The notes beneath the pieces are model-generated. The model saw only the letters and a program-made list of their open reading frames with translations, was not told the DNA's origin and ran no database searches. Position numbers and translations under genes: made by a program. Source: a virus. Taken from it: a stretch of DNA of 62,860 bases. Of this stretch, positions 42,985-62,860 are shown piece after piece (within the stretch, counting starts at the first letter, position 1; each line of letters opens with the position of its first letter). The DNA lies in IMG/VR virus record IMGVR_UViG_3300023108_000024, positions 1 to 62,860 of that record; one strand, written 5' to 3'.

Positions 42985-44582
42985 TGGCTTTTTATATAGA
43001 TAACGATCCTACTAATAATAATCCACCAGCTGCCAAAAAATTAGTATTAGATGATAGGGATATTATTGTATCTAATCCCAAAGAAAATTATTCACACCTA
43101 ACAACTGATTATACACAAAAAAAGATAAATGTAACAGTTGGAGGTGGTAACAACCAGCAAATGGTGGCTGGATGTGGTATTATAGTACAAAGTCAACAAA
43201 GTTGGACCTATGGCTCGCCCTTCGAAGGTATGGGCCGCGTTATTGTATATAATAAAAAGGGTGAAGAACTTTATAAAATTGATCCTGTTAATGCCACAAC
43301 CCTTCCGGATGGCACAGATCCTGAGTTTGGGGGTGAAGAATTTACACCAGGTATGAGAGACGGTCTGCGTTTTGGAGAAGCCGTTGCGGTTGGTAATGGT
43401 ATATTGGCAATAAGAGTTGGTGGAGCCCATGACAGTGATAATAATGGAAATTTAATAACTCTTAACTTTGCCGCTGGTGCAAATCAGGCTGCTTCAGAAA
43501 ATCAGGGTCATATTGTTTTTTACAGAGCAGCCGATGGTAGATATATTGGCCACGTTGATAGACATAAAAGTATGAACGGTTTAGACAATTCACGTGAAAC
43601 TGGATGGTCTAAGCAATCAAAACAATTGGCAATTACTGGGGGAACATACCCTGGATTTTCTTTATGTATATCATCAGATCATTATATGGATAGTAACTAT
43701 TCAACTACCGGTACAGCTAGTTATGGTTCTAATGAAAGGCCTGGTAGAGTATATGCTCATACTAGTGGTCAATACAATTATAATTCAGGATCAATTGGAT
43801 CGGCTAATAATAAATGGCAGACACATCTACCATCTGCTCTTAATCTTACTAACGCTTATGCAGATGGTCAATACCCAGTTGGATTTTTTGGTATGGTTGA
43901 TTCTTTAGGAGATTCTGCTCAGTGGTATTCAAACCCACAATTTGGAGAATCTTTGGCAGCAGGATTTGGGAGGGTTGTTATAGGAGCACCCGGTGATGGA
44001 ACAAATAATTTTTATTATGATGGGCATGGACCTGGTTCAGCATTTTTGTACAGTACATCTTTAAATCCTTTAAGAAAATTGGCCAACCCTGATCGCAATT
44101 TAAGTAACAATGATGGCTTTGGACATCATGTAGCCATAGGTTGTGGGCTTGTGGGTGTATTGGCTCCATGGTATAATAACAATCAAGGTGCTGCATATAT
44201 TTACGGCTTAGAGGGACAATTTCAATTTAAAGTAGAGGGTATGGCTAATATGAATCCTCTAACCATGTCTATAGCAAACAATCAAATTACTATAGCAGGT
44301 TCTGGAGGATCCTTAGGAGGTCATTTGAGAATATTTGATCTTGAAGGTAATTTATTAGATTCAATTAGAGGTGGTGCCGGTTGGGGATATCTTTTCGGCA
44401 GACCAAGTGGCTGGGGCAAATATATGTCATCAGTTGATGAAACAATTGTTGTTTTGGATCATGGTGATGAAAATTGGGGTGATGACCTAATTTATCAAAA
44501 CGTTGACAGTGGAGCATTCTATATATACGAAACACCAAAAAGACGCAGTAGTGTCTATGATCAAAGTATTAGAGGCGTATAA
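42984..44582 (+). CDS. FG-GAP-like beta-propeller adhesin 2 (532 aa)
   Basis: Overlaps adhesin 1 by 1 base (TAATG). Blades include VAGCGIIVQSQQSWTYGSPF, AVGNGILAIRVGGAHDSDNN, AGFGRVVIGAPGDGTNNFYY and IGCGLVGVLAPWYNNNQGAA, with LFDLEGN/IYGLEGQ-type connecting strands. Same architecture as its neighbours but strongly diverged in the loops, as expected of a duplicated receptor-binding module. C-terminus ends with a short basic tail. Confidence 0.7.
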   Translation: MAFYIDNDPTNNNPPAAKKLVLDDRDIIVSNPKENYSHLTTDYTQKKINVTVGGGNNQQMVAGCGIIVQSQQSWTYGSPFEGMGRVIVYNKKGEELYKIDPVNATTLPDGTDPEFGGEEFTPGMRDGLRFGEAVAVGNGILAIRVGGAHDSDNNGNLITLNFAAGANQAASENQGHIVFYRAADGRYIGHVDRHKSMNGLDNSRETGWSKQSKQLAITGGTYPGFSLCISSDHYMDSNYSTTGTASYGSNERPGRVYAHTSGQYNYNSGSIGSANNKWQTHLPSALNLTNAYADGQYPVGFFGMVDSLGDSAQWYSNPQFGESLAAGFGRVVIGAPGDGTNNFYYDGHGPGSAFLYSTSLNPLRKLANPDRNLSNNDGFGHHVAIGCGLVGVLAPWYNNNQGAAYIYGLEGQFQFKVEGMANMNPLTMSIANNQITIAGSGGSLGGHLRIFDLEGNLLDSIRGGAGWGYLFGRPSGWGKYMSSVDETIVVLDHGDENWGDDLIYQNVDSGAFYIYETPKRRSSVYDQSIRGV

Positions 44583-47164
44583 TGTTTTTTTCTTCAACAA
44601 GAACAATGGGAACACATTTTAATGTTGAACATGATTCTCAACAGTCTTTATTAGCCACATATGCTGATTATGGACAGTCATGGCCACAGGACGGAACCCA
44701 AGATAATTATTCTAGTATAAGCGCCCCTCTCTGGTTACAAGATCCAGTTGATAGGACTCAGGGTGGTACATATACGGTGTTTAACTACAAGGCGCAAGAA
44801 AACCCTGATTATAATCAGTATAAGAGATCCAAGAGTATTCAAATAGGTAATGGCCTTTTAATAGCAAATTCTCCGTATACGGGTGCTGCAGGTAATATAG
44901 ATGGAAGGCTTGATATTTTTGGCCTTAATGGTCAGTTTAGAAGAACACTGTTGCCATATGACGCGTCAAGTAGTTTTACCAATGCTAAGAGAGGGTCGTG
45001 GGCTATTGGGCAGGGTTTAATCGTTGGTGGTAATCAGGATGATGTGTCAGAACGAGGTCGTTGTGACCTTTATAATCTTAATGGGGAAAAACTAGGTCAG
45101 GTCCAAGTAGGATGGGAGTTCTATGATCATTTTGGATGGTCAGTTGCTATTAATGAAAATAGAATTGTAATGGGCGCACCTGGTGCTCACGATCCAAATC
45201 CATCATTTGGTGGCAAAGCTCACGGTAGAGGTTCTATAATGATCTTTGAATATGGTGGAGGTGGTAGATCTGCTAACCTTGGCAGGGCACAAGATGTATA
45301 TATGTTGGCGCATATTTATAATTATGATGATGGATATACACCCACAAGTTCTACTGAAGGTTGTTATGCTATGATGGGCCACGACGTTGCAATTGGTTGT
45401 GGCCGTATTGTAGCAGGTGCACCTGGATATCGCACTGCAGCCGGCAATGGATATCAAACTGGAGCCATTTATATTTTTGATCTTAATGGGGTGAAAATTA
45501 CTAAAATTATTGGTGGTACTTCAGCAAATAAAACTGAAGCGCAAGCTAATGGTGGTGGTGTGGCTAATAACAATGTTTATACTACATCTCAGGTTTTTGG
45601 CAATACATTTGGAATGTGTGTAGACATTGGTCATAATATGATTGTGGTTGGTGACCCAAATGCATTCAACCAAAAAGGTGCTGTATATGTATATGATCTT
45701 AATGGCAATTATATAGGTTATAGAAAAGGGGCTGCGGCAGGAGATCATCTAGGAATGTCGGTTGCCATTGGTGATGGACGTATTGTTGCTGGAGCTCCAC
45801 AAACCTTATTTCCTGACACTGTTTCTACTAATAATGGAGCTGGATATGTTGAAGTACTTAGACTTCCCACTATTTACCAAACTGACAGTGACGCCAATGG
45901 ATCTCTTGTTTTAGAAACAACTCTTTATCCCTGGACATATGCACCTAATGGTGGTGGATATGGTCAATGTGTTGCTATCGGCGAAGGTAAAATAGCAGTA
46001 TCAGACCCATCACGTATAAAGAATGTTCCGGGTGTATCACCATCACCGTACCATGGAGCTGTGTATTTATATGATACCTATAAAATAAATTCACACGAAA
46101 AATTTGCTTTTAATTTAGGTATGGATACAGATATGGGCAAATATAATGAAAACAGACTTGATGATTCTGCATCTTATACAAATAGATCCGGCAGTTTTAC
46201 ATTAAGGGGTATGCTTCCAGGTGTTAGAGCTTCAGAGCTTGTTGAACCGGGAGGTTCTATTTTTATTGATAGTAATTCATTTGTTTATTCTGATGATAGT
46301 ACTCAACCGGGATTACTAATAGATACTGATAATATTACTATAACAAATGCTGGTATTATAATGGGCCGTGGTGGTAATGGAGGTTCGGAATGGTTGGGAG
46401 ATTCTAATGGTAGGGATGGTAGTCCCGCGATTAAAATCCAACCGTGGGTTTCAGGCACAACTATTATCAACAGGCCCGGCGCCGTTATTGCAGGCGGTGG
46501 TGGCGGAGGTAGTGGTAAAGCTGGTGGTGGTGGTGCTGGAGGCGGCCACGGCGGTGTATATAGTATAATGATGGATGCATTGGATTCCAATGCAGATGGT
46601 GTTGTTCCTATGACCGTTTCAGGAGATAATTACACTCAAAGTATTGCGGGTGAATCACTACGAGGCATTGATACCTCAGGTGTAAGTCTAAGTGGCCTTC
46701 CATATGCGAGAGGGTTTGATGGATGGGCAGTAAAACAAGGCAACCCAACTAATCCATCTTCTCCTAGAGCTCTAGGTGGAGAAGGTGGCGGTGCAGGTGG
46801 TTATAGATATGCAAGCGGTGGTACTAGTATATTAGACGCTACTCAAAACATTTGGGGAAGTGGTGGATGGGGTGGCCGTGACGTCTCAAATATATCTAAT
46901 ACTACTAGTGTTTGTAATTCTGGTACTTATGGTCATGGTGGTGGTATAGGAAGTGCTACTGGTACTGGCGGAAATGGATGTGGTAGTTTAGGATACTGGA
47001 ATGGCGGCGGCGGTGGATACGGACAAGCTGGCGCAGCAAGTAATAGCTGGGCTTCAGGCAGTTATACATCATCAGGCGGTGCTAGTATTGAAGGTACCTC
47101 TTTCTTAATTGACAGTGGTACTATGTATGGCGTTCACACAGACACAACAGATATATCTTATTAA
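44582..47164 (+). CDS. FG-GAP adhesin 3 with glycine-rich gp38-like tip (860 aa)
   Basis: Residues about 80-500 form FG-GAP blades (IGQGLIVGGNQDDVSERGRC, IGCGRIVAGAPGYRTAAGNG, IGDGRIVAGAPQTLFPDTVS). Residues about 598-840 are packed with glycine-rich motifs: GRGGNGGSEW, AGGGGGGSGKAGGGGAGGGH, GGEGGGAGGYRY, WNGGGGGYGQAG. Such arrays resemble the polyglycine-II tip of T2/T6/S16 gp38 adhesins, with variable loops between them acting as receptor determinants. It ends shortly before a late promoter, so it closes this three-gene cassette. Confidence 0.75.
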   Translation: MFFSSTRTMGTHFNVEHDSQQSLLATYADYGQSWPQDGTQDNYSSISAPLWLQDPVDRTQGGTYTVFNYKAQENPDYNQYKRSKSIQIGNGLLIANSPYTGAAGNIDGRLDIFGLNGQFRRTLLPYDASSSFTNAKRGSWAIGQGLIVGGNQDDVSERGRCDLYNLNGEKLGQVQVGWEFYDHFGWSVAINENRIVMGAPGAHDPNPSFGGKAHGRGSIMIFEYGGGGRSANLGRAQDVYMLAHIYNYDDGYTPTSSTEGCYAMMGHDVAIGCGRIVAGAPGYRTAAGNGYQTGAIYIFDLNGVKITKIIGGTSANKTEAQANGGGVANNNVYTTSQVFGNTFGMCVDIGHNMIVVGDPNAFNQKGAVYVYDLNGNYIGYRKGAAAGDHLGMSVAIGDGRIVAGAPQTLFPDTVSTNNGAGYVEVLRLPTIYQTDSDANGSLVLETTLYPWTYAPNGGGYGQCVAIGEGKIAVSDPSRIKNVPGVSPSPYHGAVYLYDTYKINSHEKFAFNLGMDTDMGKYNENRLDDSASYTNRSGSFTLRGMLPGVRASELVEPGGSIFIDSNSFVYSDDSTQPGLLIDTDNITITNAGIIMGRGGNGGSEWLGDSNGRDGSPAIKIQPWVSGTTIINRPGAVIAGGGGGGSGKAGGGGAGGGHGGVYSIMMDALDSNADGVVPMTVSGDNYTQSIAGESLRGIDTSGVSLSGLPYARGFDGWAVKQGNPTNPSSPRALGGEGGGAGGYRYASGGTSILDATQNIWGSGGWGGRDVSNISNTTSVCNSGTYGHGGGIGSATGTGGNGCGSLGYWNGGGGGYGQAGAASNSWASGSYTSSGGASIEGTSFLIDSGTMYGVHTDTTDISY

Positions 47165-47629: not shown

Positions 47630-50600
47630 ATGCCAATTCAAACATCTCAGCCTAAAAGTACTTATGTAAGAAAAGTAATAGTAGGTACACCTATACGTAG
47701 GGTAACGTCTGGTGCATTTTCCATATTTAATATTACAGGTGTTAATCTTACTAATTTATCAGATAATGATCTTTTACAATTTGATTCTGATACACAGACT
47801 TTTATTAATAGACAAGAGTTAAACGTATTAAAAATTGATGAGATTACTATTGATAGTGATACTATATCTCTTGCTAATGATCATCTTAATATTGAAGGTA
47901 ATGTTGATGTTACTGGCAATATTACTCTTACTGGTATAGGCAATGCTAATATTTTCAGACAAGACATTCTTGGCGCATTTAATGATTCAGACCTTACCAC
48001 AAAACACTATGTAGATGGTGAAGTTGATAAAGTTAAACATGCTATCTTTGTAACTGATGATAATTTTACTGATTCTATTTCTCTTTATGATGCAGAGACA
48101 TTTAGAATTATTGGTGGTAATTCTATTAGTACCTCTGCCACTAAAATTGGATCAGAATACAGACTTGTATTAGACGTTGATTCAACTGGTGTAACTCCTG
48201 GAGAATATGGTTCAGGAGCACAAGTTCCAGTTTTAACCGTAAATGATCAAGGGCAAGTGACCGCCATCAATACAGTTGCTGTTGCTGGTGTTACAAATCT
48301 AGAATATGATTCTTCTGACAATAGTGGTGAAATTACCATATCAACGGCTGACGGTCAAACATTTACTACAGCCGTAACACTTAGTCCGTTCTCTACAAGT
48401 GATTTAAAAGAAAGTGATAACCTTTATTATACAAGAGCAAGATTTGATTCTGCATTAGGAGACGCAACCTCTACATCTACAATTAGAGGTATGATTAGTA
48501 CTTCGGGTGACCTACAATATGATGCTAATACTGGAGTCATTTCAGTTGACATCCAACAGGTTTACACTAGTGAAGACTTTGACTCAGATCTAGATCAAGC
48601 AATTGAAAATAGTGTAAACATACATTGGTATCCTGATTCTAACTATTTTGATTTAAACGTTACAGGTGTTGATTCTGGTACATTTGGTTCAGCAACCGAG
48701 ATTCCAACATTTACTGTTGATAGATATGGTCGTCTATATGACATTACGACTACAACTGTTGCTGGTGTTGACTCAACTAGCTGGTTATCAAATTTAAATA
48801 CATTTAGAATTAATACTGCAGATGGTGGAACTTATGATCAGGTAATTGATTCATTCGGCCAAGACATTAGATTTCAAAATGATGTAAAGATTACTTTAGG
48901 ATCAACAGATGGTATAGACGTTGATCTTTATCATGATGGCAGTAATTTCTTTGTAAAAAATAATGCATCGGGCAAAGTGGAAGTATGGTCTGATCAACAA
49001 TACTTTAAGACCGGTGATGGTAATACTTTATTTGATGCCGAACGTCTTGGTGAAGGCGTAAGACTATTCTATGACAATTTGGTTAAATTCCAAACTACCG
49101 ATAGTGGTGTAAATGTATTAGGCAATATATTACCAGACCTTGATTCAACTTATGATCTTGGTTCACTTAATCGTAGATGGAAAGATCTATATCTTTCTGG
49201 TCAGTCAATATATCTCGGCTCACTTGTATTATCAGATAGTGATGGTGCCCTTGCTGTTAAAAATGCCAATGGTCAAACAGTAGATCTTGTAGCCAAGCAT
49301 GCTAGATTTGATTCAGCCTATATTTCACAATTGACGGTAGATAGTCTAAATGTTTCTCAATTACATATTGACTCTTCATTTATCAATAACTTCAACATTG
49401 TTAATATGGAAGCCAATACTGCCGAGATACAACAATTAGCAGTAGATTCAATTTCAGCTCAAACACTAAATGTTGTAACTGGTGATATTGATCAGTTTAC
49501 TACAGACTCGGCTTATGCAATTCAACTTAACGTTGTAACTGGTGATATTGATACTCTTACATCTGCCAATGCAATTCTTGATTCAGTATATGCGGGACAA
49601 CTTAATGTAGCAACTGGTGATATAGATGCATTAACATCTGCTAATGCTACAATTGATTCAGGTACTATTACTAATCTTAATGCAGTAGATGCTTTAATTG
49701 ATTCAGCACGTATAACAAATTTAAATGTTATTACCGGTGATATTGATACGGCCACATTTGGTCAAGTATCAATTGATTCCGCATATATTTCTCAATTTAA
49801 TGCTGATAGTGGTGTAATTACTAATCTTAAATCTACTTCAGCAATTGTTAATGATAATCTCTTAATTAAAGAAAATGGTTTTATTGAATTTGAACCCACT
49901 GATTACCTATCAGCACCATCATATCAAGAAGGTAGATTGTGGTATAATCAAGATGCTAAGACTCTTTACCTACAAGGTGCAAGCGACAGCCTAGATATCC
50001 TTTTAGGTGAAAGAGAATGGATTAGAGCCAGAAACAATTCTGGTACAACAATTGAAAAAGGTAAGCCTGTTTATATTACCGGAGTTCATATTCCGGGGCA
50101 TCCAATACATGGACGTCATCCTCACATAGCATTAGCAGATGCTTCTGATGTAAATAAAAAAGATGTTATAGGTCTTGCCGGTGAGACTATTGCTGATGGC
50201 TCACATGGGTATGTGGTTGTTCGTGGTGTGCTTAATGGAATAGACACATCTAATCTTACAGAAGGTGAAAGAGTACATTTAGGATTTAATACACCAGGTG
50301 CTCTTACTTCAACTGCTCCTGAATATCCAAATTATCCTATGGATGTTGGTACTTGTCTAACTGCAGATTCTGCTGGTGCTGGTGGTTCTTTATATGTTAC
50401 ATTGTATGATCATACCTTTGAAAGGTTCCGTGTAACTGGTGCTACCCGTATTGATGGTAATGTTACTATTGCGGGTAACCTACAGGTTCTTGGTACACAA
50501 ACCACTTCATCTTCAGCAGCACTAAATGTTTCTGACACATTCATTTATCTTGGGGGTGGTGATACTATTGGCGAAGCTGGTACTAACTTCCAGGGTTTAG

Positions 50601-52921
50601 GCTCAGGTGGTACGGGTCTTGATGATGCGACAATATCGGGACACTTTACCGGTGAAGCAACTACTACTTATTGGGTTAGAATTAAAACTGCAGGTGCTCA
50701 AGATGTAATTGAGTGGGCCAAAGATTCAGACTTTAGTTCTATAGAATATTTTGATTCAGCTGGCACTGGATTGACTGAATGGAATTTGTCTACCGATGGT
50801 TTAGCTGCTATGCTGGCTGGACAAGACAATCAGGTAATTACATTTGGTGCGTCTACAGGTCACACCCAAGGTGATAGATGGAAAGGTACAGCTTCTCCAA
50901 TTAACGTACAAATTGGTATTGCTGGTAACTATAATAACCCAGCTGATTCATATGCACATTCTGGTTTGTTTAGAGATGTATCTGATCAACGTTGGAAATT
51001 CTTTACGGGGTATCAACCGGAACCTGAAGGCAATATTAACACAAGCGATCCAACATTTGCACTGGCTCCTGTTCAATTTAGTATGGGTTATGGTAATCTA
51101 ACCGGTAATGTTACGGGTCAGGTATCCACTCTCCAAAACCATACTACTGATGCTCTTAATGAAGGTTCAACAAATCTTTATTATACTGATACAAGAGCAG
51201 ACAGTGACGCTAAACATGCTATTTCTGTTACGGATACTGGAGGAGATGGATCTTTAAGTTATGCTCCTACAACTGGTATTATTACATATACAGGCCCTTC
51301 CGCGGCTGAGACACAAGCTCATTTTACAGGCGGGACTGGTATTAATTATAATGCAGGTGAAATAAAAATTGACTCTGCAGAACTAGAAAGTTACTATAAA
51401 CAAGACATAAGAGGTTACTTTACTGCCAGTGGAGATCTAACATATAATAATCAAACCGGTGAATTTAGTTTTGACGTAGAACAAGTTTACACAGCAGATA
51501 ATTTTGATTCGGATTTTGGAATAGCCATTCAAACAATTGATGGTCATTTAGTTCCTGCAATCAATGAGACATACGATCTAGGGGATTCAAACTACCGTTG
51601 GAAAGATTTATATCTATCTGGAAACACAATTAATCTTGGTGGCACTCTTATATCTGTTGACTCAAATGATGGCGGAGTAAGATTCCATAATCCTGCATTC
51701 GACAGAGTGCCTATGAGAGGTCTAGAAATTGATCTAGGTGGTACTGGCCCAAAAATTACTCTTAAGAAACACAGTACGAATGGTTTACTACAAGTAGTTG
51801 ATTCTGATAATACTCAACTGAAATACGACCTATCACAACAAACTACAGATAGTTTAGGTGAAGGTTCCTTAAATCTTTATTATACAGCAACTAGGGTTGA
51901 TAGTGATATTGACGCAAGATTGGTTGGTGGTACTGGAATTACGGTAGCATCAGGTGATATTTCTATTACCAATACCACAGTCACTGCAGGTACATATGGT
52001 TCTGCATCTCAAGTGCCAGTCTTTACGGTTAATGCCCAGGGTCAATTAGATTCTGCGGGATCAGTTAGTGTTGCAGGAGTATCATCCACATCATTCGATT
52101 CTGCTACAGGTGAATTTATTATTAATACAGCCGATGGTGGCAGTTTTGCAACACTCATACTTGATTCTGACTTTACATCACAACGTGCAAGAGATGTAAT
52201 GGTAGCAGGATCTAACATTGTATATGATTCTGCATCAGGTCTAATATCACTTAATACAAATCCATCAGTTGCGGATATTACTGCTTCAGGTAGAGTTACA
52301 ATAAATGATGATAGTAATGGTTCATTTATAGTTGATAACAACACCATTCTAAGAACCTATGGTGGCAGAGATTCTGATAATGCTAATACAAACATTCCAG
52401 CATTAGTAGGCCTAGTTGATAGCTATGGTGATGATATTATTAACATTTATGTAAGATCTGGCTTTAAGACATCAGCACATCGTTATTATGGTTCAGGCTC
52501 TGCGAAAGGTTATTACATTGCCTTTGATTCAGATGATCTATATACAGCAAGAGAAATTCAAGCTCCTCATTTAGATCTTCAACCTGGTACTACATATAGA
52601 TTCCATCAAAACGATTCTTCAATGTCTACACATGACATAAGATTCTATTTTGATAATGAAAGAAATGGTTCTATTACCGACTCTGCAGCAAAAGTAATCT
52701 ATAGTGGAACAGCCGGGGATATTAATGTTGGCAATACTTGGTCTCAAATCAGAGTTCATGATTATGGACCTAGAACAATTGCATATCAATGTTTAAACCA
52801 TCCCTATATGGGCAATGCAGCTAATACAAATACAACCGGTGGAGGTAGAATTTGGTCTACGGCAGATGGTGTAAAAATAGAGGGACTTATTTACGGTACC
52901 CTTGATGGTGGTACATATTAA
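47630..52921 (+). CDS. Giant tail fibre with cupredoxin-like C-terminal domain (1763 aa)
   Basis: Contains shaft repeats (DSAYISQLTVDSLNVSQLHI; NVVTGDIDxxT units), two copies of YRWKDLYLSG/RRWKDLYLSG followed by NLGG-type strands, and paired YYTxTRxDSD units. Near residue 800 a domain, REWIRARNNSGTTIEKGKPV, marks a distal fibre insertion. Residues about 1640-1740 resemble a cupredoxin: PGTTYRFHQNDSSMSTHDIR with H1668, and AYQCLNHPYMGN with C1721, H1724 and M1727. No S74 domain is seen. Probably a trimeric long fibre. The copper site is inferred from ligand spacing. Confidence 0.75.
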   Translation: MPIQTSQPKSTYVRKVIVGTPIRRVTSGAFSIFNITGVNLTNLSDNDLLQFDSDTQTFINRQELNVLKIDEITIDSDTISLANDHLNIEGNVDVTGNITLTGIGNANIFRQDILGAFNDSDLTTKHYVDGEVDKVKHAIFVTDDNFTDSISLYDAETFRIIGGNSISTSATKIGSEYRLVLDVDSTGVTPGEYGSGAQVPVLTVNDQGQVTAINTVAVAGVTNLEYDSSDNSGEITISTADGQTFTTAVTLSPFSTSDLKESDNLYYTRARFDSALGDATSTSTIRGMISTSGDLQYDANTGVISVDIQQVYTSEDFDSDLDQAIENSVNIHWYPDSNYFDLNVTGVDSGTFGSATEIPTFTVDRYGRLYDITTTTVAGVDSTSWLSNLNTFRINTADGGTYDQVIDSFGQDIRFQNDVKITLGSTDGIDVDLYHDGSNFFVKNNASGKVEVWSDQQYFKTGDGNTLFDAERLGEGVRLFYDNLVKFQTTDSGVNVLGNILPDLDSTYDLGSLNRRWKDLYLSGQSIYLGSLVLSDSDGALAVKNANGQTVDLVAKHARFDSAYISQLTVDSLNVSQLHIDSSFINNFNIVNMEANTAEIQQLAVDSISAQTLNVVTGDIDQFTTDSAYAIQLNVVTGDIDTLTSANAILDSVYAGQLNVATGDIDALTSANATIDSGTITNLNAVDALIDSARITNLNVITGDIDTATFGQVSIDSAYISQFNADSGVITNLKSTSAIVNDNLLIKENGFIEFEPTDYLSAPSYQEGRLWYNQDAKTLYLQGASDSLDILLGEREWIRARNNSGTTIEKGKPVYITGVHIPGHPIHGRHPHIALADASDVNKKDVIGLAGETIADGSHGYVVVRGVLNGIDTSNLTEGERVHLGFNTPGALTSTAPEYPNYPMDVGTCLTADSAGAGGSLYVTLYDHTFERFRVTGATRIDGNVTIAGNLQVLGTQTTSSSAALNVSDTFIYLGGGDTIGEAGTNFQGLGSGGTGLDDATISGHFTGEATTTYWVRIKTAGAQDVIEWAKDSDFSSIEYFDSAGTGLTEWNLSTDGLAAMLAGQDNQVITFGASTGHTQGDRWKGTASPINVQIGIAGNYNNPADSYAHSGLFRDVSDQRWKFFTGYQPEPEGNINTSDPTFALAPVQFSMGYGNLTGNVTGQVSTLQNHTTDALNEGSTNLYYTDTRADSDAKHAISVTDTGGDGSLSYAPTTGIITYTGPSAAETQAHFTGGTGINYNAGEIKIDSAELESYYKQDIRGYFTASGDLTYNNQTGEFSFDVEQVYTADNFDSDFGIAIQTIDGHLVPAINETYDLGDSNYRWKDLYLSGNTINLGGTLISVDSNDGGVRFHNPAFDRVPMRGLEIDLGGTGPKITLKKHSTNGLLQVVDSDNTQLKYDLSQQTTDSLGEGSLNLYYTATRVDSDIDARLVGGTGITVASGDISITNTTVTAGTYGSASQVPVFTVNAQGQLDSAGSVSVAGVSSTSFDSATGEFIINTADGGSFATLILDSDFTSQRARDVMVAGSNIVYDSASGLISLNTNPSVADITASGRVTINDDSNGSFIVDNNTILRTYGGRDSDNANTNIPALVGLVDSYGDDIINIYVRSGFKTSAHRYYGSGSAKGYYIAFDSDDLYTAREIQAPHLDLQPGTTYRFHQNDSSMSTHDIRFYFDNERNGSITDSAAKVIYSGTAGDINVGNTWSQIRVHDYGPRTIAYQCLNHPYMGNAANTNTTGGGRIWSTADGVKIEGLIYGTLDGGTY

Positions 52922-52924
52922 CTA

Positions 52925-52932
52925 TATAAATA
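52925..52932 (+). promoter_or_regulatory. Late promoter TATAAATA
   Basis: Perfect motif 4 bases after the giant-fibre stop, in a 61-base gap. Expected start is about 52938, then TTTTTAGGAATTAGAT before the ATG at 52983. Confidence 0.75.
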
Positions 52933-52982
52933 ATGACAAGTGGGATTTTTATCCAATTAACTTACCTTTTTAGGAATTAGAT

Positions 52983-54191
52983 ATGGCAGCAAATATTAAG
53001 CTAAAGAGATCGGCTGTTGTAGGCAAGCAGCCTCAAGCAGGAGACCTAGACTATGGTGAGCTAGCTCTTAACTATAGTGATGGTATTCTCTATTATAAAA
53101 ATTCAGCAAATGTAATTAATAGTATTTCTGGTGGTGGTGCTATTACTGATAGTGATGCGCCGACTCAGTCTTTACAAGATGGATCACTTTGGTGGGATGC
53201 CACAAATGGTAAATTAAAAATTTATTATATTGATGAAGATGCTCAAACAACACCACAAACAATATCTCTTACTTCTACAGCTTCTACTAACCATGACTAT
53301 GAAATATCAGGTTCCGATAGAATCACAACACATAGTAGTGCTTTAGATCCCAACATATATCTTATTCAGGGTGACACATTACAAATCACCCAGAACTCAG
53401 GTGCCACGCATCCCATGTATTGGGTTACACAACTTAGTATTACAGACTCTTATGATGCCCAGTATAATATATCAGGTGTAACAAACCAAGGTGCTTATGG
53501 CGGAGTCGTAATTTCACATCAATTTAATACAGTTGGTACTTTTTATTACATTTGTTCATCACACCCTATGATGGTCGGCACTATTACTGTCGTGGCAGCA
53601 GAAGCTGCAGGAGCACAATGGGTTGATGCAGCGCCTGGTTCCATTGGTTATACAGGTTCTGCCGGTGCAATTTTTCAAGGGGAAACAGCTCCTGCTAATC
53701 CAACAGACGGTCAGATCTGGTACAATTCACAGACAGGTAAATCATACATTTATTACACAAATCCTGCCACTTCTCAATCTCAATGGGTATTACAAGCAGA
53801 TCCTACTGTAACCGATGGCGATACTGGATATTCTGGATCAAGAGGTTATACAGGATCACAGGGTGCTTTAGCACCAAGATTTATCTCTATTTCTTCACCC
53901 ACCGCAAATAATAATAGAACTCTTATGTATGTTCATACAGCGATTACAGTAACAGCCGCACGAGCCGCTATTGTGAATGGTACAAACGTGACTTATAATC
54001 TTTATTTTAACAGTAGTCGCAGTGGCACTGGCACACAAATCTGTGGAGAAACTACAACAAGCACTACCACAGGATCAACACCAACGATTGCAAATGCATC
54101 AGTACCTGCAGGTAGCTGGATCTGGGTTGAGATAACTGGTGTAACTGGATCGGTAGATGAATTTAATTTAAGTATAGACTTTACAGGGTAA
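52983..54191 (+). CDS. Fibre protein with head-binding N-terminus, cupredoxin-like domain and tip (402 aa)
   Basis: The N-terminal KLKRSAVVGKQPQAGDLDYG, then ELALNYSDGILYYK, is a common virion-binding module. Residues about 98-205 form a cupredoxin-like domain: ISGSDRITTHSS, GDTLQITQNSGATHPMYW with H143, then FYYICSSHPMMVGTI with C191, H194 and M197. Short collagen-like pieces follow ([20 protein letters not shown]). The C-terminal 100 residues form a beta-sandwich tip. Carries the fullest GSDR/GTDR plus H/C/H/M arrangement of the four domains in this window. Confidence 0.7.
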   Translation: MAANIKLKRSAVVGKQPQAGDLDYGELALNYSDGILYYKNSANVINSISGGGAITDSDAPTQSLQDGSLWWDATNGKLKIYYIDEDAQTTPQTISLTSTASTNHDYEISGSDRITTHSSALDPNIYLIQGDTLQITQNSGATHPMYWVTQLSITDSYDAQYNISGVTNQGAYGGVVISHQFNTVGTFYYICSSHPMMVGTITVVAAEAAGAQWVDAAPGSIGYTGSAGAIFQGETAPANPTDGQIWYNSQTGKSYIYYTNPATSQSQWVLQADPTVTDGDTGYSGSRGYTGSQGALAPRFISISSPTANNNRTLMYVHTAITVTAARAAIVNGTNVTYNLYFNSSRSGTGTQICGETTTSTTTGSTPTIANASVPAGSWIWVEITGVTGSVDEFNLSIDFTG

Positions 54192-54196
54192 TTGAT

Positions 54197-55168
54197 ATGG
54201 CAGCTTTAACATTTCCATCTAATCCAACTCACTTAGACCTCTATACTGATCCTAACCAAGCCAAATGGCAGTGGGATAGTGATAATACTGTTTGGAATGT
54301 AATAACATCAACAACTAGAAAAAACTTTAGTGGAGTAAAAAGAAATATTATTAATACTGATTTTTCTGTTACTAACTCCTATCTTCCAATAGAATTTGAA
54401 GTTTCCCAATATGAGGTTGATAATTATTTTATAAACAGTGATACTACCGCAACAGCACCATCAACCGGATATTATAGAATTATATCAAATATATTTGCAG
54501 GTACAGAAGGTTCTGGTGCATCCTATACGGTAGAACTAAGAAAAAACAATGTTGAATTGTATATGATTCAGTTTGGTCCTAATCAATCTGTAACAATTGA
54601 TGAAACACTTAGTCTGGTTGCCGGTGATTATATTAATCTTTATGTAAAAGAAAATGTTGGCGTAGGTACATTGCTTGCTGCAAGTACATTTACTATGTAT
54701 AGATTGGGTTATTCTCCGGGCACTGGTATAAGTAATCACAATGCGTTTAGTGGTGTTAAAACTATAATTACTCAACCGTTTAATACAACCTCGACATTAA
54801 CTCCAATATCTTGGGGTACGACTGATTTTAATGCCAATGCTAACGTTCTTGGTGACCTTTATTGGTATTCGGCGGTGCAAGAAAGAATTACGGCAAGAAC
54901 AACAGGATATTATAGTTGTAAGGTTTTTGCACAATCTGGAACAGCAGGTTCTGGAAACTCTTATACAGTTACCTTAAAGAAAAATAGAAATCTCCCCAGT
55001 GAAACTGATTTATTTACAATATCTATTAGTCCAAATGATTTTGTACAATTGGATGAAACTCTTTATTTGCTTGAGGATGATTTTTTAGAATTAATGGTAT
55101 CTAATAGTGATAACACAGGTAGTTTTACTACCGATACATATTTAGAAATCGTCAGAGAAGGAGTATAG
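54197..55168 (+). CDS. Tandem C1q-like jelly-roll fibre protein (323 aa)
   Basis: Starts MAALTFPSNPTHLDLYTDPN with a WQWDSDNTVWNV aromatic segment. Two similar halves follow: STGYYRIISNIFAGTEGSGA with YTVELRKNNVELYMIQFGPN, and TTGYYSCKVFAQSGTAGSGN with YTVTLKKNRNLPSETDLFTI. The GYY...GSGxSYTVxLxKN...xxDExLxL...GDYxxL pattern matches C1q/TNF-type jelly rolls, which trimerise and bind ligands. An internal duplication is clear. Could be a fibre tip or bridging protein. Confidence 0.65.
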   Translation: MAALTFPSNPTHLDLYTDPNQAKWQWDSDNTVWNVITSTTRKNFSGVKRNIINTDFSVTNSYLPIEFEVSQYEVDNYFINSDTTATAPSTGYYRIISNIFAGTEGSGASYTVELRKNNVELYMIQFGPNQSVTIDETLSLVAGDYINLYVKENVGVGTLLAASTFTMYRLGYSPGTGISNHNAFSGVKTIITQPFNTTSTLTPISWGTTDFNANANVLGDLYWYSAVQERITARTTGYYSCKVFAQSGTAGSGNSYTVTLKKNRNLPSETDLFTISISPNDFVQLDETLYLLEDDFLELMVSNSDNTGSFTTDTYLEIVREGV

Positions 55169-55171
55169 TAA

Positions 55172-55540
55172 ATGGCGTTTGTTAAATCAACTAGTACACT
55201 ATCTGCTGATGCCGTTACAGTACCAAACCTATCAGGCGGTGATAATGGTAAGATAGTAAGAATGACCGGATCTAACACAACAGTTAATGCATTAAATACA
55301 GATACTGTAACACAACTTATGGCCGTATTGTGTAAAATGGGTGATGAATATTATGCAGCAGGTGTTGTTTCTGGATTTACAGGACTCACACCCGGCGCGC
55401 CATACTTTTTGGATGCAACTGGTGGTATTATATCATCACCGCCCACACCAAGTGCAAGTACAAGAGCCTTGTATATTGGTTTTGCTACTAACTCAACAGA
55501 TATCGTCTTTAGACCAGGAATTCCAGTTTCAGGAACTTAA
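55172..55540 (+). CDS. Small fibre/tip protein with LTPGAPYFLD motif (122 aa)
   Basis: Begins MAFVKSTSTLSADAVTVPNL. The C-terminal half, FTGLTPGAPYFLDATGG, then STRALYIGFATNSTDIVFRP, matches a widespread beta-structured module at the ends of phage fibres. Two bases separate it from the preceding stop region. It probably oligomerises as a tip or clip for the large neighbour downstream. Confidence 0.6.
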   Translation: MAFVKSTSTLSADAVTVPNLSGGDNGKIVRMTGSNTTVNALNTDTVTQLMAVLCKMGDEYYAAGVVSGFTGLTPGAPYFLDATGGIISSPPTPSASTRALYIGFATNSTDIVFRPGIPVSGT

Positions 55541-55543
55541 TAT

Positions 55544-58500
55544 ATGACTATTGCCAATCTAACACAGCATTATACTTTAGTAGACTCAGATTTTTTGGGT
55601 TTACCAGTTATGCATCATATATCTAATGATGGATATTGGTATACCTATCATCCATCTGATCTTACTAATAATGCTACACTTACAGGTAATGCTATATCAC
55701 CCTACCAATGGGATTCTGCACTAGATATTGCAACAGCTTCTGCACTATCAGGTGAACCTGAAAAAATGGCATTAGATGGTACCATTGCATTTATTGATGA
55801 AACACATAATGGATCATCATTAAGATATCATGGAGGCTGTATTCAAAATATCGGAACAGGCGTTAATGATATTACCAATATTAATGAACAAGACGCGTTT
55901 TTCTTTGGACATATTGGTACATGGGGTGATGATGGTACCCAAAATGGTGGTTTGTTAGAAGATGATGCTTTTTATTGGGATAGGGCTTATCATACATCTG
56001 CAGGAGCAGATTGGGAATTTTATCAATACCACAAACACCTTCCTTCCAACTACGCTCAGTTTGATGACGGCAGATTAGTTTGGGATGCTGATGGATATAT
56101 TAGACCTGCTGATAAACAGTATGGTTATCTAATTACTATCCGAGCTACATCAGGCGGTTCTTCTTATAATGTTCCACTTGCACGTATCCACACGCCATCA
56201 GTAGGTGGTGCACATAACTCACACAATGATGTTACTTTGCCATCAACCGCTGGTATTAACTATCTTGCCGGTGGTATTTTAAAAGGATCATCAAATAGAT
56301 TCCATGCTTTTTATATGGATTCCTCATCAACAGATGGTGAATGGAATGTGTATTCAAGAACCTATACATCATCTTCAGGTTCGTTTACTCCTCAGGTTAA
56401 TTATGGATCATTTGATCTAGCAACTCCTACATTTGTGCCATATCCTGGTGGTAATGCTCAAGCTGAAGGTATTATGAGTCAATATCCAATGAGGGTATCA
56501 GCAGGTCATACATTTGGTTCTTATGTATACTGGCCGACAATTATGAAGGCAGAAGTTATTGACTTTGGCGATCTAGTTGTTACTGCAAATGGTGGTAACC
56601 TTTATCAATTAAATGGTACGGACAGACAAGCCCCAGGTACACTTGATGGTGTGGCTAACCATCCGACTGTAAGATTAAAAGTTGGAGATACCGCAAGATG
56701 GGCATTTGCAAATTCTGGTGATGCATCTACACATCCACTTTATATTAAGACAAACAATCAAACGAACACGACTGGTCAGGCTGCGGGTGCTTCAGGGCAT
56801 GGTACACAGTATATTACCTTTACACCACAAACAGCAGGTACATATTATTATGTCTGTGTTGTACATAGTGGTATGTATGGTACTATTATTGTTGAAGATA
56901 TAGATGATACTTATGATACTCAGATTTGGCGCGTAACGGATGCTAATACTATTTCACCTGGTACTTTAACACGTATCAATATGCCATGGAATTTTAGAAG
57001 TACACCGGAACGTCCTGATGTCTTAATAACAAGTGTTGGTACAAAGTTATATGTAGCTGGTACTGGATCTTTAAGAGGTGGTGCCGATCTCTACAGCGCC
57101 GAAACTTTGATTGATTCTACTGGATCACTATATGATGAAGGACAAATTGTCACTAATACTGTTGCTAATGATTTAAGAATTCATGGCTTTAAATACAATG
57201 CTACCAACACTAAGTTCTACACACTATTAAGTGGTACTCAAGGTACTGGTACATATTCTGGAAAGGGTCTTTATAGTTTTGATCTTGCTGGTGGGTCGTT
57301 TGCAGGTTATGATCATTTAGATTATGATGTAGCTACAGGAAGTTTTATTACTAAAGGGCCTAATACATCTGGGCATATTCAATATACTCACTCAAATGCA
57401 GAATTTGTAAAAAAGACAACTTCCGAACCTGAGGGTATTACACAAGGCACTTCTATTCTACAATACGATGTTGCTTCCCCGATATTCTTTAATAAAAAAG
57501 AAATTAATACAGGCGCAGAGGAATATTATTATCAAGGTATCTATCTTTCTGATGGTCGCAAATGTCTAGTGGGGCGTGTTGAAGATAATGTGCAAAATAC
57601 TGGCCTTGGTGGTGATCTATTATTAACTATTATTGATAACGAAAACAACTCAATTAGCTATACATACACAGCTGAAGGTGATGATTATATTACAGGTGTT
57701 ATCGAAGATGTGGAAAATAACTCCTTAATATTATCTGGATACGCAAAGGGCGAATTGACTAGTAAAGGTTCACAATTGGTTCATGGATGGGGCAGAAACC
57801 TTAAAGAAACCGCTGATTCGGCTGATATGTCATTTACAAGTTTGTTTAAAACTAATGATAATGGATTTAAACTTGTAGGCAATGATGTAAGAATTAAATC
57901 ACCGTTTTTGGCTACTTATGATGAGAATTATAACTATACTGGTGCAAAATATTTTTCATTGGGGTTTGACTCTGATGAAATACATACTGTAACCCCACTC
58001 GCAAATCATAAAGATTATATTGTATCAGGATGGACAAAGAATGGCACGTTGTATAAAAATGGTTATCTTGCAAGACTTGATTCAGCAGATAATGTAATCT
58101 GGTCAAAGCGGTTTGGAGTAAGCAATAACTACAGTGAAATTACAAGCCATGCAGTAATAAATAATAATGGAATTGATAACATTGTAACATTTTTAACAAA
58201 TGAAACTAATGATGACTCCTCTAGGGGAGCTGGTATTTTATCAGTTATTAATGCTGCTAATGGCGATATTGCGACTTCTAAACTTATGCAGTTTTCAAAC
58301 GCCGATTTTCATATTAATAGAATAAGACCAGGTAGACCAAATACAGGTGAGTTTTTATTTGCAGGATCTGATAAAACTGGTAATTATAGAGCACCTAGTT
58401 GGGGTATTGGTAATGTTAATTCTAGTACTTTAGTTGATTATGTAAGACATCATTCTTGGGCAAGTACATCTGTTGCAGATGCTCAGATCCGTTCAATTGA

Positions 58501-60766
58501 AGCTGGTTATAATGATATCAGATTAACCAGATATGATTCTGATAATGCTCAATGGCGGATTGTTGTTGCTGGTAAAAGAGAAGATATATCATTAGCAGAC
58601 TCAGCACAAACTCCTGTAAACTATACTTCATATGGCCACAGATCTTTTGCGATTGCTGGTAGATATGATTTAAGAGATTCTGCAAATGGATGGGTGTCGG
58701 ATATTGTATGGGAAAAACAATATCAAAGTTTAAGAAATGAAGCTTATGTTGAAGAAATTAATACTCTTCTATCAGAAGATTCCAATCAAAGAGAATGGTA
58801 CTTAAATGAGCCTGATCATAATAACAATATGGGCAACAACCGTGTTATTATGTTAGCCACTGGTCTTAATCTTGATAGTGACGCATCTAATAGTTTTGGT
58901 ATGCTTTGGAGAAATGATACACTTGTTGCGGGTATAAATGATTCAGATGGCTCATTGTATTTTGCAAATACTCTTGGGCATATGGGCGAGGACTTTATTA
59001 ATAAAGATATGGTTTGGGATCGTCTCGGTAAAAACTTTGTATTTGGTGGAAGTTCAACTTCGCACTCCTATGGCAGAGATGCTGTAATGTTTAGACAATG
59101 GAAAACTGGATTTGGAACAGGTGTATATCATACATCATATTCAACTTCAAATGCTTATTATTATGATTCTAATCCCATTACTGCAATAAATGATACAGTT
59201 TTACAAAACAATACCACTGAAATATTGGACCCAACAATGTTTACTGTAAACATTGATACAAACAATATTTCAACAAGTGTATTGGATAAAACTTATTATA
59301 GCACGGAATATAATGGTTCATATGGTGCAAATGGTTTGTTTACTGGATTTCTTGGCATTGTAGAGTTGTCTGGTTTACAAGAATTTTTAAACACACCAAG
59401 ATATCAAGAAGAAAGAAATAAAGGATATAATATCCACGCTGCAAATGAACTCTTTGAAATATACCAGATGTCGACGGTTGGAGATGCGACCGCGGACGAT
59501 GGTAATATATTTGCTTACGATGTTATTAAATCTTCTGATAATGAATATTATTATACAGGCGGCCAAATATCTGGTAATATGGCAAAGACTAATACTGGTC
59601 TTTCCGGTGTTTATGATTATTGGTTAGGTCAATTTAATATCGCAACAAAGGAATTTCGATTCTGGCAGAACGGATCTGCGGACGATGAAGAAATATATGC
59701 AATTACAGAATTAAGGGGTTCTACTCCTTCAAACTTAGTTGAAGATCCACCTGTTACAAATAATGGGTCTGTAAACGGTGTTGTTAGCTGGACTCCCGAT
59801 ACTGCGGGAACATATTACTATCAATGTGGCAATCATGCTAATATGAATGGTATTATCACTGTTACTGATCAATCAAGTGGCACAGGAACCTATAACCTTA
59901 ATGTTACATCAACATTTACCGGAGGAGCGTTGTATTGGGCAATTTCTGGAACTGATAGAGCTACTACTCATAGCAGTGCTCTTAATCCAACCATTACAAT
60001 GGATACCGGTGATACAGTTAATTTTAGTGTAAGTACAACTAGCAATAATCACCCATTCTATATTCAGGTGTCACCCGGTATTTCACCAAAGGCAGGAAAT
60101 ATTGCAGTTGTAGGTAGATCAACTGGTGATCTCGCGGGGCCAGGCACAACTATTGGTGGATATGATATTTTCTTAGGTATATTCAATCCTACTACATGGA
60201 GCGGAGAATATTATGTAAACGGTTCAGGGTTTAATGATAAAGCAATGAACGTACATGATATTGACGACACCATAGAGAATACACTAGCTATTGTATATAC
60301 AACTTTTGGTAGTGTAAATGGTTCAGCAACATTTGGTTCTGAAGATATTGGGGTTATTACGTTTAACTATGCAACTGATACTTGGAGTCAAGGATATAAT
60401 ACTGGATCAGAAACCTCAGAAGAAATTGAACAAAATGGTAAGCCAAGTTCAAGATTACCAGACGGAAGAATCGGAGTTGTCTGCAATAGCGCCGGAGCCT
60501 TTGCTGATGATGCCAACACCTTTGGTCTAAAGGATATCGGATTAGGTATCTTTGATTTTGATAGTGACGGTTCTGGCAACTTTAATGGTTGGTCTAAATA
60601 TCAAGTAGGATCCGGATCTTCTGATTTCTCATATAGCATAGATAACAATGGATCTACATTCTTAGTAACAGGATATTCGGAAGCAACATGGGATAAAGAA
60701 GTACATGGTGTGTTTGTTGAATTCGACCCCGAAAGAGGGTTCTTAGCGAAGTCCGCAGGGAGTTAA
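55544..60766 (+). CDS. Giant propeller-type adhesin with cupredoxin-like domains (1740 aa)
   Basis: Contains repeated WD/SBBP-like propeller strands such as YLARLDSADNVIWSKRFGVS. A cupredoxin-like domain at about 345-455 has NLYQLNGTDRQAPG, H397 in ASTHPLYIK and C438/H441/M444 in TYYYVCVVHSGMYGTI. A second one near 1400-1515 has its halves in reverse order: TYYYQCGNHANMNGIITV (C1428, H1431, M1434) comes before WAISGTDRATTHSS and NNHPFYIQ (H1503). No transmembrane or enzyme signature. It probably forms a large, sugar- or protein-binding adhesin at the tail. Confidence 0.65.
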   Translation: MTIANLTQHYTLVDSDFLGLPVMHHISNDGYWYTYHPSDLTNNATLTGNAISPYQWDSALDIATASALSGEPEKMALDGTIAFIDETHNGSSLRYHGGCIQNIGTGVNDITNINEQDAFFFGHIGTWGDDGTQNGGLLEDDAFYWDRAYHTSAGADWEFYQYHKHLPSNYAQFDDGRLVWDADGYIRPADKQYGYLITIRATSGGSSYNVPLARIHTPSVGGAHNSHNDVTLPSTAGINYLAGGILKGSSNRFHAFYMDSSSTDGEWNVYSRTYTSSSGSFTPQVNYGSFDLATPTFVPYPGGNAQAEGIMSQYPMRVSAGHTFGSYVYWPTIMKAEVIDFGDLVVTANGGNLYQLNGTDRQAPGTLDGVANHPTVRLKVGDTARWAFANSGDASTHPLYIKTNNQTNTTGQAAGASGHGTQYITFTPQTAGTYYYVCVVHSGMYGTIIVEDIDDTYDTQIWRVTDANTISPGTLTRINMPWNFRSTPERPDVLITSVGTKLYVAGTGSLRGGADLYSAETLIDSTGSLYDEGQIVTNTVANDLRIHGFKYNATNTKFYTLLSGTQGTGTYSGKGLYSFDLAGGSFAGYDHLDYDVATGSFITKGPNTSGHIQYTHSNAEFVKKTTSEPEGITQGTSILQYDVASPIFFNKKEINTGAEEYYYQGIYLSDGRKCLVGRVEDNVQNTGLGGDLLLTIIDNENNSISYTYTAEGDDYITGVIEDVENNSLILSGYAKGELTSKGSQLVHGWGRNLKETADSADMSFTSLFKTNDNGFKLVGNDVRIKSPFLATYDENYNYTGAKYFSLGFDSDEIHTVTPLANHKDYIVSGWTKNGTLYKNGYLARLDSADNVIWSKRFGVSNNYSEITSHAVINNNGIDNIVTFLTNETNDDSSRGAGILSVINAANGDIATSKLMQFSNADFHINRIRPGRPNTGEFLFAGSDKTGNYRAPSWGIGNVNSSTLVDYVRHHSWASTSVADAQIRSIEAGYNDIRLTRYDSDNAQWRIVVAGKREDISLADSAQTPVNYTSYGHRSFAIAGRYDLRDSANGWVSDIVWEKQYQSLRNEAYVEEINTLLSEDSNQREWYLNEPDHNNNMGNNRVIMLATGLNLDSDASNSFGMLWRNDTLVAGINDSDGSLYFANTLGHMGEDFINKDMVWDRLGKNFVFGGSSTSHSYGRDAVMFRQWKTGFGTGVYHTSYSTSNAYYYDSNPITAINDTVLQNNTTEILDPTMFTVNIDTNNISTSVLDKTYYSTEYNGSYGANGLFTGFLGIVELSGLQEFLNTPRYQEERNKGYNIHAANELFEIYQMSTVGDATADDGNIFAYDVIKSSDNEYYYTGGQISGNMAKTNTGLSGVYDYWLGQFNIATKEFRFWQNGSADDEEIYAITELRGSTPSNLVEDPPVTNNGSVNGVVSWTPDTAGTYYYQCGNHANMNGIITVTDQSSGTGTYNLNVTSTFTGGALYWAISGTDRATTHSSALNPTITMDTGDTVNFSVSTTSNNHPFYIQVSPGISPKAGNIAVVGRSTGDLAGPGTTIGGYDIFLGIFNPTTWSGEYYVNGSGFNDKAMNVHDIDDTIENTLAIVYTTFGSVNGSATFGSEDIGVITFNYATDTWSQGYNTGSETSEEIEQNGKPSSRLPDGRIGVVCNSAGAFADDANTFGLKDIGLGIFDFDSDGSGNFNGWSKYQVGSGSSDFSYSIDNNGSTFLVTGYSEATWDKEVHGVFVEFDPERGFLAKSAGS

Positions 60767-60769
60767 TAA

Positions 60770-62860
60770 ATGGCAGCGTTAAATTTTCCAATCAACCCAT
60801 CACATGGTGATACATATAGTACTAATAGCATATCATATTTTTATGATAGTGATACTACATCTTGGGTTGCATCTACATTTATTGGCTATACTGGATCTCA
60901 AGGTTTTACGGGATCTAAGGGGTCGGGTTATACTGGATCTCAAGGTAACCTAGGATTTGTTGGTTCGGTAGGTTTTACAGGATCTATTGGTTTTACAGGT
61001 TCTAGAGGTTATGGTGGATCTGCAGCTGCTCAGGGCTTAAAATACGAAGCTGATCCAAGTTCAACAACTGTTAACCAAGCCGCTAGTGGTTCTATTCGTT
61101 GGAACAATGCTACACTTACATCTGCCTCTCAGATTGGTATTCACAGAACAAGTTCAGATGGTCATGATAATATTAACTATTTAAATACCTTTGACGATTA
61201 TGGGGGTACTACTGATCGTGGTTATCTAATGATAAGATCTGCAGATGCTAACTCATCTGACTTTTTACTTTATAGAGTTACTGGAAATAGTACTTTCTCT
61301 AATAGTGTAATGTTGTTTGATGTTACATACCTTGGAGGTACAGCTGTATTCTCAGCAAATGAAGACACTATTTTATCTTATACCCATAGAGGTAATTCAG
61401 GCTTTGTGGGCTCACAAGGTGATCAAGGGTTTACAGGTTCACAAGGTCTCAGAGGATATTCTGGATCGTTAGGTTATTCTGGATCAGTTGGTGATAAAGG
61501 AGATATTGGATATACTGGATCACAAGGTAACCAAGGTGTGCCAGGTATTAGTGGTTCTGGAGGAGGTATATTCGGGCTTGTCGGTGAAAAGTCAGCAACT
61601 CCTGCTTCTGGAGATCAATTCTCATTTGGTAACGGTGCTACTGGTAATATCTATGGTGTAAAAATACCAGAAGATATGGTTCTTGAAGCTATCACAGTTA
61701 CAACCCAAAATGCTGTAACAACTCCTATGAACATTTCTGTAAGAAGAGGTGGTGCTGCTATTGCACAGGCCCAAGTTGGCTTTGGTAATAATGATGTAAG
61801 AATATCAAATTTAAACGTATCAATAAACGCAGATGATGAAATTTCTATACGATGCGAAACATCTTCTACTGGTTCGGGTGCAGTAATTGCAACTGCTTGG
61901 TTTACCACAAATGGAGCTAAAGGTTATACAGGATCTCAGGGTATTCAGGGTCCTCAGGGTCCTTTAGGTGATACAGGTTATACTGGATCTCAGGGTGTTA
62001 TTGGTTATACTGGATCTCAGGGAGATATTGGTTATACAGGATCTAAGGGCGATCAAGGTATTCAGGGACCTATCGGCTATACTGGTTCTCAAGGTATACA
62101 AGGTCTTCGGGGATATACAGGGTCTCAAGGTATACAAGGTGTAAGAGGCTACACAGGTTCTCAAGGTGTTATTGGTTATACAGGATCAAGAGGCTCAGAC
62201 GGTACATCGATTGCAATTCAAGGGTCTGTTGCTACAACAGGTAATCTACCAAGTTCTGGCAACACAGCAGGTGATGCTTACATTGTTACAGCTAATGGTA
62301 ATCTATATGTTTGGGATGGTTCTGCATGGATCGACGCAGGGCAATTTGCTGGCTATACTGGATCTCAAGGGGTAAGAGGTTATACTGGTTCTAAAGGTGA
62401 TACGGGAGCTGGAGGCCCAGGAGGTGCACAAGGTCCTAGAGGATATACAGGTTCTCAAGGTATTCAAGGTCCTGGTGGTCCTGGAGGTCCTCAAGGCCCT
62501 AGAGGTTATACAGGATCTAGAGGTGCAACAGGACCAGGTGGCGGTACTGGTCCTCAAGGCCCTAGAGGTTATACGGGCTCTAAAGGTAATACGGGTCCTG
62601 GAGGTCCTAGAGGATATACAGGTTCTCAGGGTAATACGGGTCCTGGAGGTCCAGCGGGTCCTGGAGGTCCAGCGGGTCCTAGAGGTTATACGGGCTCTAA
62701 AGGTGATACAGGTCCTGGAGGTCCAGCTGGACCAGGTGGCGGTACTGGTCCTAGAGGTTATACGGGCTCTAAAGGTAATACGGGTCCTGGAGGCCCAGCG
62801 GGTCCTGGTGGTCCTCAAGGCCCTAGAGGTTATACAGGATCTAAAGGTTCAAACGGAACC
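60770..62860 (+). CDS. Collagen-like tail fibre, 3'-truncated by window edge
   Basis: ATG 60770 follows GCAGGGAGTTAATAA and the frame is open for 697 codons to the window end. N-terminus [16 protein letters not shown] resembles the start of the C1q-like neighbour. Gly-X-Y segments ([20 protein letters not shown] style) alternate with three non-collagen domains: about residues 85-210, 265-380 and 485-525, the last containing [20 protein letters not shown]. The final 170 residues are uninterrupted Gly-X-Y ([18 protein letters not shown]). Collagen-like stalks give long trimeric fibres; the receptor domain must lie beyond the window. Confidence 0.85.
61918..62860 (+). repeat. Collagen-like direct repeats at DNA level
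   Basis: Units such as GGTTATACAGGATCTCAAGG recur at 9- or 18-base multiples throughout, with one non-collagen break at about 62200-62350. The end (62380-62860) is more GC-rich because of GPG/GPA units. Confidence 0.85.

Follow-up and report, generated by a model that had tools for sequence, protein, structure and literature searches.

Cupredoxin-like domains with a predicted type-1 copper site in tail proteins of a putative marine T4-like phage

Four cupredoxin domains with an intact type-1 ligand set appear to be inserted as modules in three tail proteins of what we read as a marine T4-like phage. Two of the domains are canonical and belong to a subfamily that we call type A, a third represents a second subfamily, type B, and the fourth is inferred to be a natural circular permutant of type A. 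Binding of copper by these domains is likely, and rests on prediction without metal data.

Four domains in the tail-fibre block

The window, by which we mean the whole stretch of DNA analysed (62,860 nucleotides), is a viral record whose baseplate genes are T4-like. For its gp6-like baseplate protein the closest match is in phage C48C1 (37% identity), followed by marine T4-like phages and Sinorhizobium phage phiN3 (27–35%). The features of the tail-fibre block are listed below in window coordinates, with the basis of each assignment in parentheses.

47630..52921, + strand: 1763-aa giant tail fibre with a type-B domain near its C-terminal end (ORF)
52442..52837, + strand: predicted type-B cupredoxin domain, giant fibre aa 1605–1736 (profile match, AlphaFold, Foldseek)
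52631–52633, 52790–52792, 52799–52801 and 52808–52810, + strand: giant-fibre ligands H1668, C1721, H1724 and M1727
52983..54191, + strand: 402-aa fibre (ORF; PHROG tail matches)
53265..53597, + strand: type-A cupredoxin domain, 402-aa fibre aa 95–205 (Pfam Copper-bind; A1 profile)
53409–53411, 53553–53555, 53562–53564 and 53571–53573, + strand: 402-aa fibre ligands H143, C191, H194 and M197
55544..60766, + strand: 1740-aa adhesin, both cupredoxin domains inserted in its repeat body (ORF; orthologue alignment)
56573..56899, + strand: type-A cupredoxin domain, adhesin aa 344–452 (Pfam Copper-bind; PDB phmmer)
56732–56734, 56855–56857, 56864–56866 and 56873–56875, + strand: adhesin canonical-domain ligands H397, C438, H441 and M444
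59741..60082, + strand: putative circularly permuted type-A cupredoxin, adhesin aa 1400–1513 (A1 profile, orthologues)
59825–59827, 59834–59836, 59843–59845 and 60050–60052, + strand: permuted-domain ligands C1428, H1431, M1434 and H1503

Residues 1613–1736 of the giant fibre give a PHROG tail fibre match (E 5.5e-23). The 402-aa fibre is laid out as an N-terminal segment, the type-A cupredoxin, a collagen-like GYTGS stretch and a C-terminal domain. Judging from its repeats, the body of the 1740-aa adhesin is probably propeller-like.

The earlier note, made from the sequence alone, had described cupredoxin-like domains with the ligand set of blue copper proteins, marked by four C-x2-H-x2-M motifs in three tail proteins with a His 41–53 residues ahead of the Cys. 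The motifs were all found at the residues it named, and the His-to-Cys distances hold (53 residues in the giant fibre, 48 in the 402-aa fibre and 41 in the adhesin). The cupredoxin assignment also held, on the evidence of Pfam, the PDB profile search, the alignment of type A with type B and a structural model. Its description of YYx[CI]-type strands held only in part, since the strand in the giant fibre reads AYQC rather than YYxC.

A chance origin of the four motifs was rejected on composition shuffles of the three proteins. These contain 2, 2 and 5 Cys residues, four of the nine being C-x2-H-x2-M ligands, and over 20,000 trials the shuffled sets held a mean of 0.00225 motifs and a maximum of 1, against the four observed. 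A six-frame translation of the window contains just two further C-x2-H-x2-M motifs, and the frames that hold them, 25–42 aa long, are spurious. Profiles of type A and type B run over the window detected these four domains and none besides.

Type A domains and known cupredoxins

The canonical type A domains of the 402-aa fibre and the adhesin are cupredoxins by sequence, and their fold is inferred from homology. Against Pfam PF00127 (Copper-bind) the adhesin domain at 344–452 scores 22.7 bits, above the 21.2 cut-off, and the domain of the 402-aa fibre 19.9 bits, just under it; 10 of the 11 members of the type-A alignment match this family. A phmmer search of the PDB with the adhesin canonical domain returned auracyanin, NiR and amicyanin, and the type-A profile (11 relatives) matched plastocyanin, amicyanin, Cu nitrite reductase and rusticyanin at E 8e-7 to 2e-5. 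Pfam matches of type-A members are mainly to Copper-bind or Cupredoxin_1, Ig-like matches being weak and limited to a few members, and the phage domains do not meet the Pfam sequence criterion for the immunoglobulin superfamily.

The amicyanin of Paracoccus shares with the phage domains the upstream His, the type-A profile match (E ~1e-6) and a C-x2-H-x2-M motif of identical spacing (CTPHPFMRGKVVV in amicyanin and CSSHPMMVGTITV in the 402-aa fibre) that runs on into x-G-x-(V/I)-x-V. The earlier description of the Cys-His-Met spacing as shorter than in plastocyanin can thus be made more exact, the spacing being precisely that of amicyanin. Amicyanin differs in being a free electron carrier of the periplasm and in having Asn next to its first His. 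At that position the phage family usually has Pro, and the giant fibre Asp, where blue copper proteins commonly have Asn; the phage domains are embedded in virion proteins of 402–1763 aa and are not free carriers of methylamine dehydrogenase. Plastocyanin, pseudoazurin and rusticyanin (PF00127) share fold family, ligand set, and Pfam and PDB profile matches with the phage domains, but have a longer Cys-His-Met loop and are soluble electron carriers. The plastocyanin encoded by cyanophage petE genes is likewise a free host-like protein and not a fibre domain. The type-1 sites of multicopper oxidases and Cu nitrite reductases also lie in cupredoxin domains inside larger proteins, and were among the Foldseek matches described below; these enzymes differ in their trinuclear or type-2 copper ligands, none of which were seen in the phage domains. 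The HP at the first ligand resembles the type-1 His of the HPxH motif of laccases.

Given that the related cellular proteins are electron carriers, the domains could be redox modules, acting in electron transfer or as a copper-triggered conformational switch during attachment or injection. We regard this as very unlikely, as no redox partner domain was seen in the three proteins and the domains are scattered across many virion proteins and often single.

The type B domain of the giant fibre

The relationship of type B to the cupredoxins is argued through type A because direct matches to PDB and Pfam are weak. The type-B profile found only pseudoazurin in the PDB (E 0.12), and no consistent Pfam family was recovered, a weak At5g54830-like match appearing in 9 of 47 sequences. 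Aligned with the type-A profile in hhalign, type B gave a probability of 96.7% and E 4.7e-10, with all four ligands in register. The AlphaFold model of the domain has a pLDDT of 92.2 and a pTM of 0.86. Its Foldseek matches are mostly of cupredoxin fold, namely rusticyanin, laccases, nitrite reductase, amicyanin, pseudoazurin and factor VIII; the scores are modest (E 0.005–0.05, TM ~0.3–0.5, probability up to 0.98), and the top match, SO1698, is not a cupredoxin. We take the giant-fibre domain to be a second subfamily of the phage cupredoxin family. The absence of a cupredoxin beta-sandwich from predicted structures would have refuted the original proposal; such a sandwich is predicted by the model, in which the distances between the ligands are unmeasured.

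Conservation of the ligand set

Loss of the ligands among homologues would likewise have counted against the proposal, and the ligands proved to be conserved. They are invariant in alignments with named phages 28–44% identical to the window, and among the orthologues of each of the three window proteins, including five distinct orthologues of the 402-aa fibre besides the window's own and four full-length orthologues of the adhesin canonical domain. Nine columns are invariant across 47 type-B sequences, the four ligands among them, and in both subfamilies the ligands rank at or near the top for conservation. The full set (HCHM) is present in 172 of 184 distinct full-length type-A domains and 196 of 222 type-B domains. 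Seven further domains replace the fourth ligand, Met, with Gln, a variant known from stellacyanin; stellacyanin-like Gln-for-Met domains were observed at loci L044, L049, L054, L059, L087, L098 and L074.

Since the Cys motif was part of what the domain scans looked for, ligand conservation could be biased, and we therefore recounted on the 74 distinct non-seed domains only. Of these, 55 carry the site (48 HCHM and 7 HCHQ); most of the remainder are missing at least two ligands or match only in part. Where the site is retained in these 74 domains, it is mostly retained whole. About a quarter lack part of the ligand set; consequently, copper is not needed by every copy.

A site for another ion, for example Zn(II), has in its favour that Cys/His sites can bind Zn and that there are no metal data. 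It is very unlikely nonetheless, since the fold, the ligand order, the amicyanin spacing and a fourth ligand of Met or Gln are all traits of type-1 copper.

A putative circular permutant in the adhesin

The fourth site, C1428/H1431/M1434/H1503, had been called rearranged in the earlier note. Its ligands held, and we amend the reading to a conserved circular permutation. The adhesin copy matches A1 profile positions 55–116 and then 7–85 in succession, so that the C-terminal half of the type-A profile corresponds to adhesin residues 1380–1444 and the N-terminal half to 1452–1539 (both ranges in ORF numbering, one residue ahead of protein numbering). The permuted order and all four ligands are present in nine of nine distinct orthologues (the window and eight others, 48–75% identical), and in none of the nine is the permuted copy preceded by a His half or followed by a Cys-His-Met half. 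The dN/dS of this copy is 0.01–0.46, with synonymous change near saturation in most pairs.

The core of the permuted domain was modelled with block pLDDT values of 89–96, with strands where the two halves predict them. Foldseek comparison of this model with the PDB, which aligns in chain order, returned nothing significant; because of that constraint the missing match is expected and is not proof. Against predicted viral structures (BFVD), the only significant match was the proximal tail fibre of Synechococcus phage S-CAM1 (E 3.4e-5). This S-CAM1 protein (L012:2407-4662) is subtilisin-like and holds a second permuted cupredoxin; its halves stand in the same order as in the adhesin copy, and the chain is broken elsewhere, immediately ahead of the Cys-His-Met hairpin. 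We infer that the adhesin site is a natural circular permutation and that such permutation has arisen at least twice; that the halves form a single barrel is unproven without a structure. Relatives with tandem canonical domains (L238–L249) are plausible intermediates for permutation by duplication, and arrays with truncated copies also occur. The permutant may have originated by tandem duplication followed by loss of the outer halves.

The alternative is that recombination left two half-domain remnants at this site that are unrelated to each other. The lack of a significant PDB match and the truncated copies in arrays are compatible with this. However, the nine distinct orthologues retain both halves, their order and all ligands under purifying selection, the core is confidently modelled as one unit and S-CAM1 shares the half order, so that we consider remnants unlikely.

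Distribution and relatives

A single type-B query found matches in 229 of 50,697 phage records, comprising 164 from Synechococcus phages, 32 labelled cyanophage, 20 Prochlorococcus, 4 Pelagibacter, 4 Methylophilales and 5 others. For scale, the gp6-like protein of the window has matches in 373 Synechococcus, 61 cyanophage and 627 Escherichia records; at the query threshold, no Escherichia record in this collection carried the type-B domain. A single-sequence scan of viral contigs recovered near-identical contigs only, for which reason alignments were used for two further contig scans; these gave at least 539 and at least 406 confirmed matches. Copper-type modules on phage fibres, which the earlier note had expected to be unusual, thus belong to a family widespread in marine phages. 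The annotations of the matched phage proteins are tail fibre, structural protein of the virion, baseplate wedge or hypothetical protein. The search for the family in other virion proteins that had been proposed at the outset placed it on fibres, on wedges of the baseplate and on subtilisin-like or other protease-like spikes.

The cupredoxin fold and the type-1 site have long been known. In the open-access literature searched, we found no description of a cupredoxin as a phage fibre domain or as a natural circular permutant, nor was virion proteomics of a domain-bearing protein established there.

Cellular relatives of type A are found mainly in marine Flavobacteria and other Bacteroidetes; archaeal and other metagenome-assembled genomes (MAGs) hold a few more. 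Proteins of marine Flavobacteria and other MAGs (L183–L193) look secreted and have the type-A domain at their C-terminus, and are a possible cellular source of the domain. Six loci (L065, L074, L084, L097, L100 and L101) encode proteins of ~2,770–3,310 aa with seven cupredoxin domains each, some of which have lost ligands.

This distribution may reflect a large and promiscuous family whose surface domains have been exchanged between tail fibres, wedge proteins of the baseplate and protease-like spikes, much as happens with Ig-like domains in other phages. The Ig-like decoration domains of tailed phages are similarly promiscuous beta-sandwich modules on different virion proteins, but differ in that the phage cupredoxins have a conserved metal site and, in the collection searched, come largely from marine phages. 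On a structural-relic reading, the domains would be Ig-like spacer beta-sandwiches whose ligands are kept for folding or are unloaded in virions. The promiscuous distribution, like that of decoration domains, is in keeping with this, as are the ligand-less copies that persist in relatives (YCYY, HNTM and YETL types), from which it follows that the fold works without metal. Against it, the ligands are conserved as a set at or near the top of the ranking, the main substitution tolerated being the stellacyanin-like Gln, and they survive circular permutation in nine of nine orthologues. We consider a relic unlikely.

Possible role on the virion

The explanation that we favour, with moderate confidence, is that the domains are surface modules with a copper site, in which metal loading, stabilization and adhesion are all inferred. 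The proteins would fold copper-free in the reducing cytoplasm of the host and take up Cu(I) or Cu(II) outside the cell after lysis. The metal may then lock the Cys/His loop and stabilize the exposed adhesion module, and the stabilized module could help the tail to hold or recognize a cell surface. The adhesion role is inferred from location and analogy, without virion or adsorption data, and our confidence in it is well below that in copper binding. The roles suggested at the outset, namely stabilization of tips, sensing of copper and binding of cell-surface copper proteins, have no supporting data.

In a copper version of the Trojan horse, drawn by analogy with the iron hypothesis for phage tails, the copper-loaded site would itself be the receptor-binding element and dock to host surface proteins that acquire or bind copper. 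A precedent exists in the iron-binding HxH motifs proposed as receptor mimics on tail fibres of a marine phage (PMC11705849), which are likewise proposed metal sites and differ in metal, ligands and fold. The position of the giant-fibre domain near the C-terminal end of its fibre and the occurrence of the family in phages of cyanobacteria, Pelagibacter and Methylophilales also speak for this idea. However, the domains occur as well on baseplate wedge and protease-like proteins, which are not necessarily receptor-binding tips; one phage may have several different copies, and some copies have lost ligands; and the hosts differ widely, with no known receptor. The Trojan horse is accordingly judged unlikely.

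Should copper be bound, the attachment organelles of cyanophages and pelagiphages would bear metalloprotein modules, infection would be tied to trace-metal chemistry, and virions would belong to the marine pool of copper ligands. A bolder reading, slightly more apt to be wrong than right, is that of a large undescribed family of copper-binding tail modules in abundant ocean phages, in which permuted type-1 sites (ligand order Cys-His-Met...His) have arisen at least twice, each with its own break point; virions would then carry copper and depend on the copper of seawater for attachment or stability. The copper link is open to work on cultured phages such as P-SSM2, P-HM1, S-TIM5 and Melnitz. 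In the conserved putative permutants, the blue-copper ligand set would have survived a natural change of chain order, and the cupredoxin family provides a name for domains now annotated as tail fibre or hypothetical protein.

Other genes of the window

Beside the tail-fibre block, window positions 44582–47164 encode a protein of 860 aa in which VAIGxxxIVxGAP motifs (FG-GAP-like) recur and whose tail is rich in Gly; a PHROG search gave no match for it. A long collagen-like protein of GYTGSQG/GPQGP repeats occupies 60770–62860 and runs past the end of the record. At 8327–9493 the window contains a tryptophan-halogenase-like gene (PHROG 2928, E 5e-64).
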